Below, one piece after another: positions 1 through 36,086 of a stretch of 64,000 bases of DNA. The stretch lies in the NCBI GenBank assembly GCA_014872815.1, contig WKFK01000002.1, forward strand, positions 1-64,000, read 5' to 3'. Below the pieces are notes generated by a model. That model saw only the letters and a program-made list of their open reading frames with translations, had not been told where the DNA came from and did not search any database. The translations under genes were made by a program, and so were the position numbers. The stretch's first letter is position 1. Each line of letters opens with the position of its first letter. The DNA comes from Paracoccaceae bacterium. GTDB taxonomy: Bacteria; Pseudomonadota; Alphaproteobacteria; Rhodobacterales; Rhodobacteraceae.

Positions 1-265
1 CAAAGGCCAAAACCAAGGTTAACAAACGCACCACACATCCACTTATCCACAGACTCACACAAAAGACTCACCAAAGACTCACACCGCAGCACACAGCAGC
101 CACGCCAAAACCAACGTCGGTATCACAGCTGTATCGCAGAGGTGCGGAAACAAGGACATAGAGACTGTCGTTTCTAGAAAACGAAGAGACAGGACGATCC
201 CCTCGACCCCGGCCAACACCCAACGCAGATGTGGTACAGTCATCGACCAATTTATCCCCTCACCT
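1..265. other. Leader region upstream of the first gene
   Basis: This stretch holds no credible gene. It contains a TTATCCACA DnaA-box-like 9-mer at 43-51, three AGACTCAC direct repeats at 51-58, 64-71 and 75-82, and a partial copy of the 11-bp repeat array at 114-145. Reverse-strand open frames here have no family features and run antisense into the gene starting at 266. The region probably carries the promoter of that gene. Confidence 0.6.
114..145 (+). promoter_or_regulatory. Partial 11-bp phased repeat array (copy C)
   Basis: Three consecutive 11-bp units, ACGTCGGTATC, ACAGCTGTATC and GCAGAGGTGC(G), match the second to fourth units of the arrays at 34894 and 14893; I count 26 of 32 positions identical to the array at 34894. 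The first full unit is missing. It points toward the gene at 266 and ends about 120 nt before its start. Function is unknown; tandem sites for an OmpR/PhoB-type regulator are a guess from the 11-bp period. Confidence 0.5.
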
Positions 266-5429: not shown

Positions 5430-6596
5430 TTAGGCAGCGGGCATCCGCTTTTCAACGATCTCCGCCCACCAGGAGCAGCCCGCCGGAATGGCGTCGTCGT
5501 TAAAGTTATACTCTGGGTGATGCACCATCGCGCCATCTTCACCGTTGCCAACAAGGATATAAGCGCCCGGACGCTCTTCCAGCATGAAGGCAAAATCCTC
5601 GCCCCCCATCACCAACGGAGCTTCCGCGCACTGACCAGAAATGGACTTGGCAACCTCAGCAGCAAACTCTGTTTGCGCCTCAGAGTTCACCATGACCGGA
5701 TACCCGCGGTGGTATTTCACTTCAACGGTGCCACCAAATGTCGCCGCGATACCGTCACAGATTTCGTTGATCCGCTGCTCCGCCAACTCACGCATCTCTT
5801 TGGACATCGTGCGCACGGTACCTTTGATGTGCACTTTCTGCGGGATCACGTTAAACGCCTTTGAAGAGGTCTCAAAGCTGGTCACAGACACAACCACCTG
5901 ATCGATGGGGTCCGCGTTACGGCTGGCAATGGTCTGCAGCGCCAAAACCGCCTGTGCAGACATCACTGTGGTGTCCACAGTGTCGTGCGGTTTCGCGGCG
6001 TGACCACCACGGCCCTCAAAGTGAATATCAAACTGATCGGTTGCCGCAAAGAACGACCCAGGACGGATCGCAAAGGTGCCCAGAGGCACACCAGGCCAGT
6101 TGTGCATACCGTAGACTTCCTGAATGCCCCAGCGCTCCATCAGCCCGTCTTCGCACATTTCGCGACCACCGCCACCACCTTCTTCGGCAGGCTGGAAGAT
6201 CACCACAACCGTGCCGTCAAAGTTGCGGGTCTCCGCCAGATACTTTGCCGCGCCGAGCAACATCGCCGTGTGCCCATCGTGGCCGCAGGCGTGCATCGCA
6301 CCCGGTGTTTTGGAGGCATATTCCAGACCGGTCTGCTCGTGAATAGGCAGCGCGTCCATATCCGCGCGCAGGCCGATGACCTTACCAGAGCCGGTTTCTT
6401 TGCCCTTGATCACGCCGACCACACCGGTGCGGCCAATGCCAGTGGTCACTTCATCCAGCCCAAACTCTTTCAGCTTCTCTGCCACCAGCGCACTGGTGCG
6501 GTGTGTCTCAAACAAGATCTCCGGGTTTTCATGCAAATCACGGCGCCAGGCGGTGATTTCGTCGTGCAATTCTGCAAAACGGTTCTTAGTGGGCAT
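5430..6596 (-). CDS. M20D-family amidohydrolase (hippurate hydrolase-like), copy 1
   Basis: The 388-residue protein is full length for the HipO/ILR1-type M20D peptidases, which hydrolyse N-acyl or aminoacyl amide bonds with a binuclear metal centre. Visible motifs are RADMDALP, the metal-binding ACGHDGH (about 101-107), PAEEGGGG, GRGGHAA and the C-terminal MGGEDFAFMLE with a downstream HHPEYNFND. It has no signal peptide, so it is cytosolic. It is the last of three tandem paralogues on this strand, with a 27-nt gap from copy 2, and is followed by a terminator. The acyl or amino acid substrate cannot be read from sequence. Confidence 0.93.
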   Translation of the reverse strand: MPTKNRFAELHDEITAWRRDLHENPEILFETHRTSALVAEKLKEFGLDEVTTGIGRTGVVGVIKGKETGSGKVIGLRADMDALPIHEQTGLEYASKTPGAMHACGHDGHTAMLLGAAKYLAETRNFDGTVVVIFQPAEEGGGGGREMCEDGLMERWGIQEVYGMHNWPGVPLGTFAIRPGSFFAATDQFDIHFEGRGGHAAKPHDTVDTTVMSAQAVLALQTIASRNADPIDQVVVSVTSFETSSKAFNVIPQKVHIKGTVRTMSKEMRELAEQRINEICDGIAATFGGTVEVKYHRGYPVMVNSEAQTEFAAEVAKSISGQCAEAPLVMGGEDFAFMLEERPGAYILVGNGEDGAMVHHPEYNFNDDAIPAGCSWWAEIVEKRMPAA

Positions 6597-6623
6597 AGTC
6601 AGTCCTCGCTCAATAGTACGTAC

Positions 6624-7787
6624 TTAAGCCGCAGGCATGCGGCGTTCGATCACTTCCGACAGGTAGCTGCTCCCGTGTGGGATCGCGTCGTCGTTAAAGT
6701 TGTATTCGGGGTGATGCAACGCGGCGCTGTCGCCGTTGCCAATCATGATGAAAGCACCGGGACGTGCTTGCAGCATGTAAGAAAAATCCTCGCCACCCAT
6801 CTTCAATGGGGCTTCCTGACAGCGCCCCGCCACAGCAGTTACCACCTCTTTGGCAAACTCTGCCTGTTCGTCCCAGTTGATGGTCGCTGGTGTGATGCGC
6901 TGGTAATCCACCTTTGCGGTGCCACCAAAGCTTGCCGCCACACCGGCGACAACCTCTTTCATCCGCGCTTCAACCATGTCCTGCACATCGGGGTTAAATG
7001 TGCGCACAGTGCCTTTGAGCGTCGCCGTGTGCGGGATCACGTTGTATACATCAGAGCCGGTCTGAAATGAGGTCACAGACAGCACCGCACGTTCCACCGG
7101 GTCTGCGTTGCGACTGACAATCGATTGAAGGGCCAAATGGATCTGGCTGCCCATCATCGTCGGATCGATGGTCTTGTTCGGTGCGGCCGCATGCCCCCCT
7201 TTGCCCTCAAGTTCGATGGTGAAGAAATCCACCGCCGCCAAAAGCGGCCCTTTGCGCACGGCAAACTCACCCACCGGCAAACCAGGGTTGTTGTGCATAC
7301 CGTAGACCTCTTTGATGCCAAAGCGCTCCATCATGCCGTCTTCGACCATCGCCAGGGCGCCATTGCCGCCCTCTTCGGCTGGCTGGAAAATCAGCGCTAC
7401 AGATCCGTTGAAATTGCGGGTCTCGCTCAGGTACTTTGCCGCCCCAAGCAACATCGCCGTGTGTCCGTCATGGCCGCAGGCATGCATGGCGCCTTCGTGT
7501 TTGGACGCATAGTCCAGACCGGTCTGCTCCGCCATCGGCAGCGCGTCCATATCTGCGCGCAGACCGATAACATCGCCTGTGGTATCCGTCTTTCCTTTGA
7601 TCAGACCAACAACACCTGTGCGGCCAATGCCGGTGACCACCTCGTCACATCCAAACTCTTTGAGTTTTTCTGCCACCAAAGCAGAGGTGCGATGGGTTTC
7701 ATACAACACCTCCGGGTGCGCATGGATATCCCGCCGCCATTCCGTGATTTCTGCGTGCAGTTCTGCAAAGCGGTTTTTGACCGGCAT
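6624..7787 (-). CDS. M20D-family amidohydrolase (hippurate hydrolase-like), copy 2
   Basis: This 387-residue paralogue of both neighbours keeps all family motifs: RADMDALP, ACGHDGH, PAEEGGNGA, GKGGHAAAP and MGGEDFSYMLQ with HHPEYNFND. It is the middle gene of the tandem, separated by about 20-30 nt on each side, so one transcript is likely. The N terminus begins MPVKNRFAELH, nearly the same as copies 1 and 3 (MPTKNRFAELH and MPVRNRIAQMH), which supports the start and recent duplication. Like copy 1 it should be a cytosolic metal-dependent amide hydrolase; differences in the pocket may give each paralogue its own substrate. Confidence 0.93.
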   Translation of the reverse strand: MPVKNRFAELHAEITEWRRDIHAHPEVLYETHRTSALVAEKLKEFGCDEVVTGIGRTGVVGLIKGKTDTTGDVIGLRADMDALPMAEQTGLDYASKHEGAMHACGHDGHTAMLLGAAKYLSETRNFNGSVALIFQPAEEGGNGALAMVEDGMMERFGIKEVYGMHNNPGLPVGEFAVRKGPLLAAVDFFTIELEGKGGHAAAPNKTIDPTMMGSQIHLALQSIVSRNADPVERAVLSVTSFQTGSDVYNVIPHTATLKGTVRTFNPDVQDMVEARMKEVVAGVAASFGGTAKVDYQRITPATINWDEQAEFAKEVVTAVAGRCQEAPLKMGGEDFSYMLQARPGAFIMIGNGDSAALHHPEYNFNDDAIPHGSSYLSEVIERRMPAA

Positions 7788-7808
7788 GTCTCTCTCCCCT
7801 GCCCCTGC

Positions 7809-8984
7809 TCAGTTCGCGCTCGGCATGCGCCGCTCGATCATTTCCACAAACCAGCTGCTGCCCAGCGGGATCGCATCGTCGTTGAAGTTGTATTCCGGGT
7901 GGTGGCACTGTGCGCTATCACCATTCCCCAAATGAATGTAGGCTCCCGGGCGCTCTTCCAACATGAAAGAGAAGTCCTCTGCCGGCATGATGGGATCAAC
8001 GTCTGGGTCCACATTGGCCTCGCCCGCCACCGCTTGCGCAGCTTCAACAGCAAACTCGGTTTCACGATCATGATTGACCGTCACCGGATAGCCCTCTTCC
8101 CAGATCACGTCCGCCGTTGCACCAAAGGCCAACGCCGTGTGCGTCGCTACCTCGCGAATGCGGCGTTCGGCCAACTCCCGGTTGTTGTTGTCAAGCGTGC
8201 GCACGGTGCCTTTCATCCGCACGGTATGCGCGATCACATTGGAGGCGTTGCTGTCAGTCTCCAATGTCCCAACCGTCAACACGACCCGTTCGATTGGCTT
8301 CACATTGCGTGACACAATGCTTTGCAAAGATACCAAAATCTGCGCGGCCACCAAGGTGGTGTCCACCGCTGCCGCAGGCTCCGCGGCGTGACCGCCCTTG
8401 CCCGTAACCACGATTTCGAATTCATCTGCCGACGCCATGAGCGCCCCGGGACGAATGCCAAATTCTCCAACCGGTACGCCCGGCGCATTGTGCATGCCGT
8501 AGACTTCCTGAATGTTCCAGCGATCCATCATCCCGTCACGGCACATCTCACGGCCACCACCGCCGCCCTCTTCAGCGGGTTGGAAGATCATCACCGCCGT
8601 GCCGTCAAAGTTCCGCGTTTCCGCTAGATACTTCGCCGCGCCCAGCAACATCGCCGTATGGCCGTGATGCCCACAGGCGTGCATTTTGCCATCTATCTTG
8701 GAGGCATATTCCAGCCCGGTCGCCTCATGAATGGGCAGCGCGTCCATATCCGCGCGCAGGCCAATGACGCGACCTTTGGTGTCCGTCTTGCCTTTGATGA
8801 CCGCAACAACGCCGGTGCGCCCAATGCCCGGTGTGACCTCATCCACGCCAAATTCTTTTAGGCGCGCCTGCACAAACTCCGCTGTCTCATGCACATCAAA
8901 CATCAACTCCGGATTCTCATGCAGATGGCGCCGCCACCCGGTGATCTCTTCGTGCATTTGCGCAATACGATTGCGGACGGGCAT
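7809..8984 (-). CDS. M20D-family amidohydrolase, copy 3, altered metal motif
   Basis: This is a 391-residue protein if started at the ATG ending at 8984, which has a GGAGGAA ribosome site 6 nt upstream and aligns with the N termini of copies 1 and 2. A longer frame reaches 9080 but adds an unrelated 32 residues. It has RADMDALP, PAEEGGGGG, GKGGHAAEP and EDFSFMLEERPGAY. The usually invariant ACGHDGH motif reads ACGHHGH (Asp to His at residue 107), and MGGEDF reads MPAEDF. Metal binding or specificity may therefore differ from the other two. It is the first gene of the three-gene operon, whose promoter lies in the spacer shared with the histidine kinase gene. Confidence 0.92.
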   Translation of the reverse strand: MPVRNRIAQMHEEITGWRRHLHENPELMFDVHETAEFVQARLKEFGVDEVTPGIGRTGVVAVIKGKTDTKGRVIGLRADMDALPIHEATGLEYASKIDGKMHACGHHGHTAMLLGAAKYLAETRNFDGTAVMIFQPAEEGGGGGREMCRDGMMDRWNIQEVYGMHNAPGVPVGEFGIRPGALMASADEFEIVVTGKGGHAAEPAAAVDTTLVAAQILVSLQSIVSRNVKPIERVVLTVGTLETDSNASNVIAHTVRMKGTVRTLDNNNRELAERRIREVATHTALAFGATADVIWEEGYPVTVNHDRETEFAVEAAQAVAGEANVDPDVDPIMPAEDFSFMLEERPGAYIHLGNGDSAQCHHPEYNFNDDAIPLGSSWFVEMIERRMPSAN

Positions 8985-13340: not shown

Positions 13341-14780
13341 CTACTGATTTGGGGGAATATACGGATCCGGAGTTCCAGGCGGAATGGGCGGATAAGTCAC
13401 AAATGTTGCCAAGTGCTCCTGCAACTGAGGCAGCGCCTTTTCGGCTGCCCAGGTATGGGGGAACAGAACGCTTTCACGTTCATGCGGATCATTTAGAAGG
13501 TTGTATACGCGAGGTGTATCGAATGTCTCAGTTGGACTGAAAGCTGTTGTGTTCTCTTTAAACAGCACCTTCCAGTCCTTCCATTTCACCCCAAAAATTT
13601 GCTCCCCCATATAAACAATCACACCTTCACGGCCAGAGTTGGGCTGATCCCCCACAAAAAACGCGGACTGGTCAATTCCATCAAACGCTCTATCTGTTGG
13701 AACCTCTCCACCGGCAAAAGCTGCCAGTGTTGGAAATAAGTCCATGGAATGCACGACGTCATTGCTGACAGATCCCGCCGGAATTCTTCCCGGCCATTTG
13801 ATAGCAAAGGGCACCCGAAGGCTCCCTTCGAGACTCGTGAAAAGCGTCCCGCGCCAAGGGCCAGCGCTGCCTTGAACAGGCGGCGTGGGCGACACATTGG
13901 CATTGCCAACTGGTACAGCTTCCGGTCCGTTGTCCGCCGTGAAGATCACTACCGTGTTTTCCGCTACACCGGCATCCTCCAAAGCCTGAACCACGCGCCC
14001 GATATACGTATCCGTTTGATGCAAAATATCTGCCCAAACCCCGTTTCCGGTCACCCCATCAAAATCCGGATGGGGGATATTTGGGTAGTGGGTATTGGTA
14101 TATGCGAGGTAGATGAAAAACGGATCATCCTCATTGCTTTTCCGACCTATGTAGTCGATCGCCATTTCGGTGAGGTCACCATCGATGAGACCACGGTAGT
14201 CGATGTCATAATCCCGCGCCACAGTCGCTGGTTCACCAGCTTTCCCCTGCATCACCACGGGGTTCTCCATCCCTGCTTCTGCAAACCCCGCCAATTGACG
14301 CCAGACTGTAACGTCTGTGGTTTCTACAGCGTAGAATTCATCAAAGCCCTGATTGCTGGGATAGCGCCCTTCAGACCACCCAAGATGCCACTTCCCATAC
14401 ATTGCGGTGCTGTACCCGGCGTCCTTGAGCATTTCCGCCATCGTGACTTCCCATTGCGTCAAGCCATAGACGCCGCCGCCTAAAGGCACTGTGTGGTTGC
14501 CACTACGCACGCCGTAGCGCCCGGTCATGGTAGCCGCACGCGAAGGGGTGCACTGGCTTTCAACGTTGAAGTTGGTGAGACGAAGGCCTTCTGCCGCCAA
14601 TGCATCCATGGCCGGTGTTGGCGCACCACGAATAATGCCGCCCCCATTAAAGCCAGGTTCGCCCCAGCCAAAATTATCGAGAAAAATGAAAACGACGTTT
14701 GGTTTTTCCTGCGCCCACACACCTGAGGCGAAAGCAAGCGAAGCACAGAATGACGCAATCCAAGACTTTAGTGAGTTCAT
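13341..14780 (-). CDS. Secreted sulfatase (arylsulfatase family)
   Basis: From the ATG ending at 14780 the protein has 479 residues and a Sec signal peptide (MNSLKSW ... SGVWA, cleavage near residue 23). That start has a GGAG ribosome site; an upstream frame to 14843 lacks a signal context. The type I sulfatase motif C77-T-P-S-R provides the cysteine that becomes formylglycine. Metal-ligand regions are visible at FLDNFGWGE and FTADNGPEA, and the KWHLG motif is present. It should hydrolyse sulfate esters in the periplasm or outside. The substrate is unknown. No formylglycine-generating enzyme lies in the window. A phased repeat array lies 112 nt upstream of the start. Confidence 0.92.
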   Translation of the reverse strand: MNSLKSWIASFCASLAFASGVWAQEKPNVVFIFLDNFGWGEPGFNGGGIIRGAPTPAMDALAAEGLRLTNFNVESQCTPSRAATMTGRYGVRSGNHTVPLGGGVYGLTQWEVTMAEMLKDAGYSTAMYGKWHLGWSEGRYPSNQGFDEFYAVETTDVTVWRQLAGFAEAGMENPVVMQGKAGEPATVARDYDIDYRGLIDGDLTEMAIDYIGRKSNEDDPFFIYLAYTNTHYPNIPHPDFDGVTGNGVWADILHQTDTYIGRVVQALEDAGVAENTVVIFTADNGPEAVPVGNANVSPTPPVQGSAGPWRGTLFTSLEGSLRVPFAIKWPGRIPAGSVSNDVVHSMDLFPTLAAFAGGEVPTDRAFDGIDQSAFFVGDQPNSGREGVIVYMGEQIFGVKWKDWKVLFKENTTAFSPTETFDTPRVYNLLNDPHERESVLFPHTWAAEKALPQLQEHLATFVTYPPIPPGTPDPYIPPNQ

Positions 14781-14892
14781 AGTCAAACTCCGATCAATAA
14801 ATGGAATGCATCTCAATAGACGCGCCAAATCACCTTTGGTCAACTCCTGCTAAGTTGGCGCAGCCCCCGTTAACCTCTCCCCTCCCCAAAAC

Positions 14893-14935
14893 GCACCTCC
14901 GTAAAACAGACGCGATACCGACGTTATACCGACGT
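14893..14935 (-). promoter_or_regulatory. 11-bp phased direct-repeat array (copy B), upstream of sulfatase
   Basis: On the reverse strand, four 11-bp units run in a row: ACGTCGGTATA, ACGTCGGTATC, GCGTCTGTTTT and ACGGAGGTGC. The array is identical to the one at 34894 at 38 of 43 positions and, like it, ends 112 nt before the start codon of the gene it faces. The 11-bp phase places units on one face of the helix, as in OmpR/PhoB-type sites. The function is inferred, not known. Confidence 0.6.
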
Positions 14936-14975: not shown

Positions 14976-15437
14976 TCAGAGCGGTAGCATGCTGGTAGAC
15001 TTGATTTCTTCCATAGATAACAAAGCGGTAACATTGTGCACCTTCACCTCTGAAATCAGAGCTTGATAAAAGGTGTCATAAGCGCGCGCATTCTGCACCT
15101 GAACTTTCAGGATATAGTCTATGTCCCCCGCCAGCCGGTGCGCTTCCAAAACTTCAGGGCGCTCGCGTAGGGCTTTGAGGAACTTCTGCTGCCAATCCGC
15201 CTCATGCTCGCTGGTGCGGATCAAAACAAAGAAACAGGCATCAAAACCAAGGGCTTCCGCATCCAGTAGCACCGTCTGCTGCCGGATCACCCCGGCCTCT
15301 TTGAGTTTGCGAATGCGATTCCACACTGGCGTCTTGGAAGAGCCCACACGTTTGGCAATTTCATCCAAAGATTGCGCGGCATCCCGTTGCAGCTCGCCGA
15401 GAATTTTCTTATCCATATCGTCAATACGCAACGCCAT
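14976..15437 (-). CDS. Lrp/AsnC-family transcriptional regulator
   Basis: A 153-residue protein from the ATG ending at 15437 (an upstream frame adds 16 unrelated residues). The N-terminal winged helix-turn-helix reads LDEIAKRVGSSKTPVWNRIRKLKEAGVI; the C-terminal half is the RAM ligand-binding domain (VLEAHRLAGDIDYILKV). Proteins of this family form octamers and sense amino acids or other small ligands. The gene is divergent from the sulfite reductase operon, and a palindrome at 15509 lies in the shared 141-nt spacer. I infer control of sulfur assimilation, perhaps responding to a sulfur compound. Confidence 0.92.
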   Translation of the reverse strand: MALRIDDMDKKILGELQRDAAQSLDEIAKRVGSSKTPVWNRIRKLKEAGVIRQQTVLLDAEALGFDACFFVLIRTSEHEADWQQKFLKALRERPEVLEAHRLAGDIDYILKVQVQNARAYDTFYQALISEVKVHNVTALLSMEEIKSTSMLPL

Positions 15438-29267: not shown

Positions 29268-30176
29268 TCAGGCGGGTTCTAAAGAGGCGCGTGCCTCATC
29301 CAACAGCCGTTTTGCCTCTGAGCCTTGCAGCTTTGCTATGTCGTCCTGGTATTTGAGCACAGCGCCCAACGTGTCCGCGATCACTTCCGGACTGAGCGTC
29401 AGAACATCCAACGCCAACAAACACTTGGCCCAATCAATGGTTTCCGCCACACCGGGTTTTTTGAAGAGGTCTTCCGTGCGTAAACGCTGCACAAATGCCA
29501 CCACCTCACGGCTAAGGCTTTCTGCAGCCTCTGGCGCGCGCGCCTGCAAAATGGCCATCTCTCGGTCAAAATCAGGGTAATCGACCCAGTGATAGAGACA
29601 ACGGCGCTTGAGCGCGTCGTGCACCTCTCGGGTCCGATTTGACGTCACAATCACGATCGGCGGTTGGGGGGCTTTGATGGTCCCAATCTCAGGGATCGTC
29701 ACTTGAAAGTCACTGAGCGCTTCAAGCAGGAAGGCCTCAAACGGTTCGTCGGTGCGGTCCAATTCGTCGATCAACAAAACCGGGGCACCGGCGGGGTCCG
29801 GCTGCATGGCTTTGAGCAGTGGACGTTCAACCAGGTAATCCGGCCCAAACAACTCTTCCTGCAGGGCGCCACGGTCAGTACCGCCGCTGGCTTCGGCAGT
29901 GCGAATGGCCACCATCTGGGCAGCGAAGTTCCACTCATAAACCGCGCTGGAGGCATCGAGACCTTCGTAACACTGCAAACGTATCAAGCTTCGGCCAAGG
30001 GCAGATGACAACGCTTTGGCGATTTCTGTTTTTCCGACCCCAGCCTCCCCTTCCAGAAAAATGGGCCTACCAAGCCGTAGCGCCAAAAAAACAACGGTCG
30101 CCAATGGGCGGCCACACACGTATCCCTCGGCAGCCAAAAGCCTTTGAACGTGATCGATGCTTTGAATGTTCTGCAT
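29268..30176 (-). CDS. coxD: MoxR-family AAA+ ATPase, CoxD type
   Basis: From the ATG ending at 30176 the protein has 302 residues. It shows Walker A GEAGVGKTEIAKAL (about 41-54), Walker B LLIDELDRTDE, sensor 1 VTSNRTREVHDALKRRC and the WVDYPDFDREM segment typical of MoxR proteins. CoxD is an ATP-dependent chaperone needed for sulfuration and copper insertion in the CO dehydrogenase active site; here it should serve the form II enzyme downstream. It is the promoter-proximal gene of the reverse-strand cluster. The ribosome site is weak, and a frame up to 30236 exists, so the start is tentative. Confidence 0.9.
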   Translation of the reverse strand: MQNIQSIDHVQRLLAAEGYVCGRPLATVVFLALRLGRPIFLEGEAGVGKTEIAKALSSALGRSLIRLQCYEGLDASSAVYEWNFAAQMVAIRTAEASGGTDRGALQEELFGPDYLVERPLLKAMQPDPAGAPVLLIDELDRTDEPFEAFLLEALSDFQVTIPEIGTIKAPQPPIVIVTSNRTREVHDALKRRCLYHWVDYPDFDREMAILQARAPEAAESLSREVVAFVQRLRTEDLFKKPGVAETIDWAKCLLALDVLTLSPEVIADTLGAVLKYQDDIAKLQGSEAKRLLDEARASLEPA

Positions 30177-33344: not shown

Positions 33345-34835
33345 ATGAACGAAATCGCAAGCATCAATCCAGGCGAAACCGCAGCGGCAGAAATGGAAGC
33401 ATTGCCGCACTCCATCGAGGCTGAACAACAGCTTTTGGGCGCAATCCTGACCAACAATGATATCTTCGATCGCGTTGCCTCGATTATCAACTCGTCCCAT
33501 TTTTATGAGCCTGTGCATTCACGCATTTACGAAATTGCGGCAGCCCGGATTGCGAAGAACAATCTGGCCTCTCCTGTGACGCTCAAAGCCTTCTTGGAAG
33601 ACGACCCTGGCCTGATCGAATTGGGCGGCCCTGCCTATCTTGTCCGCTTGGCCGGATCGGCAATTTCTTCTTTTGCCGCGGCGGATTACGCGCAGATGAT
33701 CTACGACATGGCGATGCGCCGTGAGTTGATTGATCTAGGCAATAACATCGTATCCAAGGCCAAGAAGGCAGACATCAAGCTGGAGCCAAAAGAGCAGATC
33801 GTGGAGGCCGAACAGGCGCTCTATAAGCTGTCTGAGCAAGGTTCGGCCGAGCGCGGGTATGTGTCCTTCCTCAAGGCGGTGACCGAGGCGGTGAACACGG
33901 CAAACGCAGCCTATCAGCGGGACGGTGGTCTGGCCGGAATTTCTACCGGTTTGATCGACCTTGATAAAAAGCTTGGCGGCCTGCACCCCTCGGACCTTTT
34001 GATCCTCGCCGGACGTCCCTCGATGGGAAAAACCTCGCTGGCGACCAACCTCGCGTTTAACGTGGCAAAGGCTTATAAAAAAGGCATAAAACCGGATGGC
34101 ACCGAAGGAGCAATCGAAGGTGGTGTTGTCGCATTCTGTAGCCTCGAAATGTCAGCCGAGCAGCTTGCGGCGCGTATTCTTTCGGAAGCGGCGGAGATCC
34201 CGTCGGAGCAAATCCGGAAAGGGGACATGACCGAGGAGGAGTTCCGGCGGTTTGTTCAAGCAGCCAAAGACCTTGAGGCCTGTCCGCTCTTCATCGATGA
34301 CACTCCTGCCCTGCCGATTGCGCAACTCGCGGCACGGGCCCGGCGGCTGAAACGGACCCATGGTCTGGACCTGTTGATCATCGACTATTTGCAGCTGTGT
34401 CGCGGTACCTCCGACAACCGTGTGCAGGAGATCGGTGAGATTTCCATGGGCATGAAGGCCATTGCCAAGGAACTCAATATTCCGGTGATTGGCCTGTCCC
34501 AGCTGTCGCGTACGGTGGAAAGCCGAGACGATAAACGCCCTCAACTCAGTGACTTGCGGGAATCTGGCTCGATCGAACAGGATGCCGACGTGGTGATGTT
34601 TGTGTTCCGCGAAGAGTACTACGTGGAACGTGAAAAGCCCTCTGATGACCGGCTGGATGAGATGGCCGCCTGGCAGGAACGTATGGAGCGGCTGCACGGC
34701 AAAGCCGAGGTGATCCTTGGCAAGCAGCGTCACGGTCCGATTGGGACAGTGGAGCTCTCGTTTGAAGGCCAATACACCCGCTTTGGCAACCTTGTGCAAC
34801 CTTGGCAACAAGGTGGTGGCGGAGACGAATTCTAA
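33345..34835 (+). CDS. dnaB: Replicative DNA helicase
   Basis: From the ATG at 33345 the protein has 496 residues, normal for DnaB. The N-terminal domain starts at LPHSIEAEQQLLGAILTNN, the RecA-like domain has Walker A GRPSMGKTSLA (about 226-236), FCSLEMSAEQL, Walker B LLIIDYLQL, and the DLRESGSIEQDAD and KQRHGPIGT motifs. DnaB is the hexameric 5'-3' helicase of the replication fork. No intein is present at the P-loop. A GTG at 33324 is in frame, but the ATG has a better spaced purine-rich site. Confidence 0.96.
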   Translation: MNEIASINPGETAAAEMEALPHSIEAEQQLLGAILTNNDIFDRVASIINSSHFYEPVHSRIYEIAAARIAKNNLASPVTLKAFLEDDPGLIELGGPAYLVRLAGSAISSFAAADYAQMIYDMAMRRELIDLGNNIVSKAKKADIKLEPKEQIVEAEQALYKLSEQGSAERGYVSFLKAVTEAVNTANAAYQRDGGLAGISTGLIDLDKKLGGLHPSDLLILAGRPSMGKTSLATNLAFNVAKAYKKGIKPDGTEGAIEGGVVAFCSLEMSAEQLAARILSEAAEIPSEQIRKGDMTEEEFRRFVQAAKDLEACPLFIDDTPALPIAQLAARARRLKRTHGLDLLIIDYLQLCRGTSDNRVQEIGEISMGMKAIAKELNIPVIGLSQLSRTVESRDDKRPQLSDLRESGSIEQDADVVMFVFREEYYVEREKPSDDRLDEMAAWQERMERLHGKAEVILGKQRHGPIGTVELSFEGQYTRFGNLVQPWQQGGGGDEF

Positions 34836-34893
34836 GCCCAAGTGTCGACCAATCGAATCGCTGCGTTAACCTTAGGTTTTCGCAGCGGTTTGA

Positions 34894-34936
34894 ACGTCGG
34901 TATTACGTCGGTATCACGACTGTTTTGCGAAGGTGC
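34894..34936 (+). promoter_or_regulatory. 11-bp phased direct-repeat array (copy A), upstream of alr
   Basis: Four 11-bp units stand in line: ACGTCGGTATT, ACGTCGGTATC, ACGACTGTTTT and GCGAAGGTGC. The first two are nearly identical and the third and fourth are degenerate. It matches the array upstream of the sulfatase at 38 of 43 positions, and its end lies 112 nt before the alr start, the same offset as there. An activator or repressor with tandem, same-face contacts is the likeliest user. Confidence 0.6.
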
Positions 34937-35048: not shown

Positions 35049-36086
35049 ATGGCTACTGCAACTTTGACAATCGACCTCGACGCCCTGATCAGCAACTGGC
35101 GGGCGCTGGATGCACAGACGGAAGTGACCACCGCCGCGGTGGTAAAAGCGGACGGGTATGGACTTGGCGCAGACCGCGTAGCGCGGGCCTTGATGCGCGC
35201 CGGAGTGACCCGCTTTTTTGTCGCCGCCGCCGAAGAAGGCGCCAGTTTGCGTCAAGCCGTTGGACCGGACCCGGAGATCAACATCTTTGGCGGCCACATG
35301 CGCGGCGACACTGATATGATCAGTGACATGCATCTCACTCCGATGCTGAATTCAATGGATCAGATTGTGCGCCATTTCGAGGCGCTGCCAGCGCATCCCT
35401 TCGGCATTCAGCTGGACACCGGCATGAACCGCTTGGGTCTTGAGGCGCCGGAATGGGACGCGGTGAAGGAACTGGTCCTGCAACGCGGGCCAAACTTGAT
35501 CATGTCGCATCTGGCCTGTGCCGATGAGCCTGAACACCCGATGAACCCGCAGCAATTGGCGGCGTTCAAAGAGATGACCGACGGCTTGGATGTTCCGCGT
35601 TCACTCGCCGCAACGGGCGGCATTCTGTTGGGCGATGACTATCATTTTGATCTGACCCGCCCCGGTGTTGGCTTGTATGGCGGCATGCCGTTTGTGGACG
35701 CCACCCCAGTTGTCAGCCTGCGTATTCCGGTGATTCAGGTGCGCGACGTGGCCGAGGGAGAGAGCGTCGGCTATGGCAACGCTTGGATCGCAGAGCGAGA
35801 CAGCAAGGTTGCGACAATTGCAGCAGGCTATGCCGATGGCATTCTGCGTGCCATGAGCGGCAAGGTCTTCACATTTGCCGGCGAGGACCGCTGTCCCCTG
35901 ATTGGGCGGATATCCATGGACCTGATTGGCATCGACGTGACAGACCTGTCGGAAATGCCCCATGAGGTTGAGCTGCTTGGTCAACATCAGTCGGTGGACA
36001 CGCTGGCAGATGCTGCCGGCACCATTGGCTATGAAATCCTGACCTCGATGGGGCAACGCTATCACCGGCGGTACAAATCTTCATGA
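35049..36086 (+). CDS. alr: Alanine racemase
   Basis: The 345-residue PLP enzyme makes D-alanine for peptidoglycan. The cofactor lysine lies in [13 protein letters not shown], the substrate region in [12 protein letters not shown], and the second-domain catalytic tyrosine region in [10 protein letters not shown], with [13 protein letters not shown] near the end. I start at the ATG at 35049 because [17 protein letters not shown] matches the family N terminus; the frame from 35007 adds 14 unrelated residues. No strong ribosome site is visible. The stop overlaps the mlaE start (ATGA). Confidence 0.95.

Follow-up and report, generated by a model that had tools for sequence, protein, structure and literature searches.

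Arrays of 11-bp repeats in the window

The DNA analysed here, which we call the window, is a stretch of 64,000 nucleotides that carries two near-identical arrays of 11-bp units and a weaker third copy near its first letter. E values were obtained in the window's own genome with R1, a sequence-only model built from 27 sites. The features concerned are as follows.

114..148, plus strand: array C, a weaker three-unit copy (R1 E 1.7e-6)
13341..14780, minus strand: sulfatase gene (Pfam name), start 112 nt downstream of array B
14869..14874, unstranded: GTTAAC, a flank word enriched near arrays, downstream of array B
14893..14935, minus strand: array B, four 11-bp units between the Lrp/AsnC-type gene and the sulfatase gene (R1 E 1.1e-16)
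14976..15437, minus strand: Lrp/AsnC-type regulator gene, stop codon 40 nt upstream of array B
33345..34835, plus strand: dnaB, replicative helicase gene, stop codon 58 nt upstream of array A
34865..34870, unstranded: GTTAAC, the same flank word, upstream of array A
34894..34936, plus strand: array A, four 11-bp units between dnaB and alr (R1 E 7.2e-16)
35049..36086, plus strand: alanine racemase gene (alr; Pfam name), start 112 nt downstream of array A

Arrays A and B, of 43 bp each, differ at five positions (38/43 identical), and both are real and placed as the preliminary description had them. Its statement that each ends 112 nt before a start codon is likewise correct for the pair, the first ATG standing at 35049 for the alanine racemase and at 14780 on the minus strand for the sulfatase. 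Taken as a rule, this distance proved to be a coincidence. Over 50 sites between co-directional genes the next start lies anywhere from 6 to 900 nt away, and 6/50 fall at 105-120 nt, a count that carries the rough starts of our home-made gene caller, which for example placed the sulfatase start 171 nt from array B. Paired ACGTCGGTAT units at 11-bp spacing, allowing up to three mismatches, were matched five times in the window, whereas 100 shuffles gave 0.00 matches on average. Both arrays match the direction of the local GC skew. Array C is an R1 match, yet it falls under the cut-off of the genome-wide site list described below.

Several further observations were made along the way. The GC skew turns from negative to positive near window position 30000, between the minus-strand and the plus-strand array, perhaps at an inversion border. 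Three related tandem copies occupy window positions 5526-8984 at spacings of 1191 and 1197 bases, and are 68-76% alike over the stretches compared. Arrays also lie at or near four contig ends (window 114-148; C2 43233, C3 3 and C7 3) with about 40 bp of similar sequence downstream, and these may represent DNA behind collapsed rRNA operons. Neither contig C5, compared over all its 6.6 kb, nor C10, over its first 20 kb, showed similarity to the array-bearing contig ends, and C5 gave no Rfam match.

Anatomy, placement and orientation of the genome-wide family

The window's genome (G000; 3.96 Mb in 16 contigs) holds 136 matches to the two-unit pattern at up to three mismatches, and none to a reversed control pattern. 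R1, with which 150 of 1757 first-look candidates were scored, gave 94 matches at E<=1, and rescoring of the ~8 kb regions around them with a 44-bp matrix yielded a list of at least 89 distinct sites. Because scoring with R1 covered only those 150 of 1757 candidates here, and 22 candidates from each genome in the family scan, the 89 sites and the family counts given later are lower bounds. The preliminary description had proposed a genome-wide pattern search in which tens of copies at a fixed distance from transcription starts would count in its favour and copies mainly within genes against it; 88/89 sites proved to be intergenic and one genic.

The core measures 44 bp and usually comprises four (three to five) 11-bp units, the last of them distinct. 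Among the 76 sites whose score exceeds 45, unit 1 reads ACGTCGGTAT with each position at >=93%, and unit 2 is the same but for its first base, which is A in 63%. The consensus of unit 3 is about RCG-W-CTGT-W-T, and that of unit 4 is GCGGAGGTG, then mostly C and G. The third and fourth units noted at the outset are thus indeed there; the view that they are degraded copies does not stand, as each has its own consensus across these stronger sites. Constraint is weakest at the junction bases, at the first bases of units 2 and 3 and at positions 4 and 9 of unit 3. Counted by eye, units number three to five in the window's genome and two to four in G075. Most sampled sites in other genera have units that are alike, RCGTCGGTAT, with a last unit CGTCGGTG. 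In genomes G487 and G388, by contrast, individual units have taken forms peculiar to the genome. As dozens of sites share such changes in single units, the slots may be read separately.

Alignment of 27 sites over 100 bp revealed little that is shared beyond the core. A/T tracts border the arrays at both edges, and the word GTTAAC recurs near the 89 arrays, with 23 copies 16-45 bp before and 17 copies 15-45 bp after them; within 100 bp of the arrays its density is ~2.5 per kb, and in the intergenic DNA of 464 kb it is 0.22-0.46 per kb. CGCAACG/CGTTGCG words, some of them in inverted repeats, are also enriched beside arrays (e.g., G000:C9:195196 and C6:47688), with 31 observed for CGCAACG against 3.9 expected. 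Within the 44 bp the longest perfect stem is 7 bp at one site, 6 bp at another and at most 5 bp at the remaining 87.

The relation of the sites to genes was examined with the home-made gene caller, which assigned 86% of the fetched regions as coding. A facing stop codon lies within 100 bp of 79/89 sites. For the 85 sites that remain after leaving out three at contig ends and the genic one, convergent, tandem and divergent contexts number 32/50/3 against 12/53/20 expected from 464 kb of the same genome (p 6e-11), and the expectation for divergent gaps can be put at about 20-25. Among the tandem sites 41/50 are nearer to the 3' end of the preceding gene than to the next start, with median distances of 40 nt versus 94.5 nt. 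Array strand is uncorrelated with gene strand (21 vs 29, p 0.32). Pfam matches were found in 19/20 site-adjacent genes, whose functions are unrelated, so there is no visible regulon. Together, the stop-codon placement, the few divergent sites and the unrelated neighbours speak against promoter operators and a common regulon. Control of the downstream gene, which the preliminary description had derived from the fixed start distance, is not borne out, as the sites trail stop codons and avoid divergent promoter regions; its wider proposal, of a helically phased array beside unrelated genes that is very likely protein-bound, gains support.

Orientation tends to follow the local GC skew: the array strand is the local G-rich strand at 79/89 sites. 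A null based on composition alone already places 73/89 on the leading strand, which leaves an excess at p 0.05-0.06, and orientation is for this reason weaker evidence of a polar function than the raw count suggests. Where the skew is clear (|skew|>=0.08) all 62/62 sites follow it against 56 expected from composition (p 0.0017). G388 shows 29/30 against 23.3 expected from composition (p 0.004) among the matches listed, G006 and G001 together show 19/20 (p 0.23 against composition), and in six other genera 23/30 sites follow the short-locus skew as a raw count, G196 contributing 2/5. On the largest contig of G388 one arm carries 41 plus-strand and 1 minus-strand array and the other 11 plus and 35 minus, among the matches listed; in G487 orientation is mixed, 28 of the arrays listed up to 2.3 Mb being on the plus strand and 12 on the minus strand. 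The single contig of G075, on which replication direction was set by parS near 0.13 Mb with the terminus assumed opposite, has 15/16 arrays running with replication at E<=1e-3, and 18 vs 7 (one unassigned) at E<=0.1. Along 400 kb of one contig the arrays run mostly with the skew, and three plus-strand arrays lie in zones near or slightly below zero. We regard the leading-strand orientation, a modest excess over composition, as real and likely to be selected, short of proof. As an observation apart, G000:C16 292001-692000 (L118-L137) is divided into blocks where the skew is near +0.12 or near -0.12 and into neutral zones tens of kb long, which suggests past inversions.

Spacing in the window's genome is more regular than chance. 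The 75 gaps between neighbours average 42 kb with a CV of 0.53 versus 0.94 for uniform placement, and 0/20,000 trials were as even; a second test, independent of contig sizes, agrees. Applied elsewhere, this second test gave p 0.014 for G236, 0.057 for G196, 0.18 for G261 and 0.15 for G075, and G145 and G171 offered too few gaps. Among the matches listed, evenness reached p 0.023 in G487 (first 2.3 Mb) and was not shown in G388 (p 0.27), where pairs stand 96 and 126 bp apart. Even spacing is therefore strong in the window's genome and weaker or absent elsewhere.

Conservation, turnover and distribution

Two relatives at about 90% protein identity to the window's genome, G011 and G007, allowed 17 syntenic site pairs to be compared, representing 14 distinct G000 sites. 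Divergence was 5% in the core of units 1-2 and 9% in that of units 3-4, and reached 34% at the junction and first-base positions of the same pairs; both partners of a pair must be recognisable, which biases these figures towards the core. This is the pattern of selected binding sites, and on such comparisons we take the 11-bp-phased core to be under purifying selection. Position was followed for 40 sites of four species, picked from the best R1 matches. It was kept for 8/10 sites in G011 and 9/10 in G007, and for 3/10 in G001 and 2/10 in G006, so that few positions are shared at about 71-77% protein identity. Together with one site common to at least six genera, the first two counts dispose of the objection, raised in advance by the preliminary description, that the repeats might have no conserved position. 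Two further G006 sites lie between the same genes as their G000 counterparts but are flipped, each on the local G-rich strand (the assignment of one, L177, rests on one gene per side), and sites therefore seem to be lost and regained.

The widely shared site lies between a GNAT gene and chorismate mutase, before rpsP-rimM, and has the same orientation in G139, G171, G236, G196 and three MAGs (two Silicimonas MAGs and one other). Searching via the chorismate mutase gene recovered it in 3/12 array carriers (G487, G342 and, in degenerate form, G145) and in 0/8 genomes with no array or one, which makes the genera at least six, or seven counting G145. Such sharing suggests an ancient system with repeated losses, or a preferred location. 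The region also surfaced in a search for the binding protein, in which 957 predicted proteins, encoded no more than about 1.6 kb from a site, were compared across genera: the ffh-GNAT-chorismate mutase-rpsP-rimM region came out on top, and as this reflects the shared site position it does not supply a candidate. Chorismate mutase was rejected as a partner of the arrays, being found in 20/20 genomes searched, with or without arrays.

Matches were found in 11/12 relatives of the window's genus, with a single one in G005 and none in G009, and eight genomes of other families gave no match. In the family scan at least 14/248 genomes, the window's own included, had a match at E<=1e-5 under strict filters. 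A longer pattern was matched in 27 of 292 genomes sampled at order level, at 10 or more places in 18 of the 27, and control matches came to 3 in total. Presence is on or off within genera, many sites being found in 2/14 species of g64 and 3/10 species of g266. The function of the arrays would thus be dispensable, because most genomes of the family sample and some congeners are without sites. In a collection of named genomes one variant retrieved 51 stretches, with titles of Rhodobacteraceae genera, Rhodobacteraceae or Rhodobacterales bacteria and two alphaproteobacterial MAGs.

The array-free G009 was checked for a different 11-bp-phased array in place of this one. A strict periodicity test returned nothing in 400 kb of about 4.4 Mb; the test is insensitive, since it found only one array in 400 kb of the window's genome. 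Among 7-mers repeated at a distance of 11, GTCGGTA occurs 8 times in that stretch of the window's genome, and in G009 none occurs more than once. G009 does have four single CGTCGGTAT words, and the one gap matched to a G000 site is 40 bp long and array-free. Two arrays used as queries found no match at E 0.01 in a plasmid collection. The sole match in a viral collection, L265 (IMGVR_UViG_3300037791_000022), is filed as viral and on ORF reading has one array among bacterial genes (carB-like, LuxR- and autoinducer-synthase-like, and acyl-CoA dehydrogenase-like); it looks like host DNA, and a viral origin was set aside.

Proposed role, rival explanations and known systems

The best-supported interpretation of these data is a functional binding array that would act at the level of DNA, at many unrelated gene ends and with no link to promoters. 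Going one step further, we tentatively propose, at a little short of even chances, that the arrays are dispersed docking sites for a putative DNA-binding protein with a chromosome-wide, non-promoter role. One module of the protein would sit on each helical turn, and the array would load a directional complex, head-to-tail or multi-domain, on one face of the DNA. Placement at 3' ends would keep the array clear of promoters and in the regions where positive supercoils gather. Rather than nearby promoters, the bound array might then affect the whole chromosome, serving as an anchor or boundary or telling a translocase or loop extruder which way to move; if a species lost the protein, the sites would be expected to disappear as well. 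Counting against this proposal are the share of the orientation that composition accounts for, the mixed strands of G487 and the 2/5 of G196, the lack of even spacing in G388, the missing sites in most of the family sample and in congeners, and the few positions shared at about 71-77% protein identity. It is because of orientation, spacing and placement together that we infer a directional role in chromosome organisation. In E. coli, positive supercoils are reported to build up downstream of highly transcribed regions, chiefly between convergent genes (PMC8360656), and as they gather behind transcribed regions a topological role for the arrays is thinkable. A more specific form, a counterpart of CTCF-type boundaries, we consider unlikely as it stands: a long polar four-slot site, each slot read by its own module of the putative protein, would stand behind genes on both arms, where it would halt or guide a machine travelling along the DNA (SMC, FtsK or the replication fork), and would be kept in some species and lost in close relatives.

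Much of the same evidence could be produced by a REP-like, short non-autonomous mobile repeat, whose putative transposase would prefer gene 3' ends and single-stranded lagging-strand DNA. Such an element would fit the on/off distribution within genera, the unit variants proper to each lineage, the leading-strand orientation, the close pairs in G388 and the location at 3' ends, as reported for REPs (PMC3733652). It fits poorly with the very unequal divergence of core and junctions after speciation, which is expected of selected sites, with the small amount of common sequence beyond the core (27 sites, 100 bp), with the position common to at least six genera and with a spacing that in the window's genome is more regular than random placement. 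Inverted repeats within the core, moreover, show no excess over shuffles at the 89 sites, and none of 10 predicted pairs has changed on both sides among 27 aligned sites. On balance we regard mobility as a rather improbable explanation with a real claim to attention. The same 0/10 count bears on RNA elements in 3' untranslated regions, which the location directly behind stop codons might suggest; the window has no Rfam match at gathering score and both strands relative to the gene are used, and we give this possibility hardly any credence.

Two further alternatives concern transcription. If the arrays were protein roadblocks halting RNA polymerase where genes end, and chiefly where two genes converge, it would be clear why 79/89 sites have a facing stop codon no more than 100 bp away and why 32/85 stand between convergent genes. 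Array strand is nevertheless independent of gene strand (21 vs 29), only about 90 gene ends have an array, and hairpin-plus-T stretches are seen by eye in many array-free convergent gaps and also beside some arrays; spacing and leading-strand orientation would be left without explanation. Roadblocks therefore seem to us a poor prospect. Direct repeats of 11 bp are known for OmpR/PhoB-type proteins, and the preliminary description accordingly read the arrays as operators for a regulator of this type, or another global one, acting on the downstream promoter. The repeat length agrees with that reading, and response regulators are named among direct-repeat binders in the BldC paper (PMC5859096). 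Operators would be expected at regulated promoters; the arrays have only 3/85 sites in divergent regions, 41/50 tandem sites nearer the 3' end, 32/85 sites in convergent gaps, which no gene start faces, variable distances to starts and unrelated flanking genes. Operator function is accordingly very improbable.

Whatever their role, the arrays are a chromosome-wide set of selected sites in a large bacterial family, and they could bear on the question of directional boundaries on bacterial chromosomes other than parS, matS and KOPS. Species of one genus with and without sites amount to a natural experiment, and the genes that differ between them should help in tracing the binding protein. The element is undescribed in the titles and abstract openings surveyed by sequence and topic words, a survey with subscription literature largely outside its scope.

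Among known systems, centromeres of the ParR/parC type consist of direct 11-bp repeats bound by a segregation protein and form single clusters on plasmids. The arrays share the direct 11-bp repeats, and differ in being about 90 small arrays spread over a genome. Archaeal SegB is described as a protein with many scattered sites. KOPS, the FtsK-orienting sequences, are described as polar sites able to steer a translocase, and they tend to follow the direction of replication, as the arrays may do as well; they are 8 bp long (PMC2680272), whereas the arrays are 44 bp, number about 90 per genome, are intergenic and are patchy between species. Head-to-tail protein filaments on direct repeats do exist: BldC (PMC5859096) and RdfS (PMC11963761) are reported to bind direct repeats in this directional way, and the number of repeats varies. 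The arrays too are direct repeats of variable number, as judged by eye. BldC repeats, however, are given as 9 bp long, with AATT at their core and a role in promoter regulation (PMC5859096), and those studied here are 11 bp with CGTCGGTAT and stand at gene ends. REP and CGTC-tagged REP repeats are described as short, multicopy, intergenic, located downstream of genes between convergent or co-directional ones, and patchy between species (PMC3733652), and in all of this the arrays resemble them, having many intergenic copies behind genes. REPs are palindromes, with stems of 8-9 bp in the CGTC families (PMC3733652); the arrays, in contrast, have no such stem and are direct repeats in 11-bp phase with what appears to be a selected core. 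We put the chance that they are something categorically new at somewhat under a quarter, and place them among the dispersed intergenic elements, a known kind.
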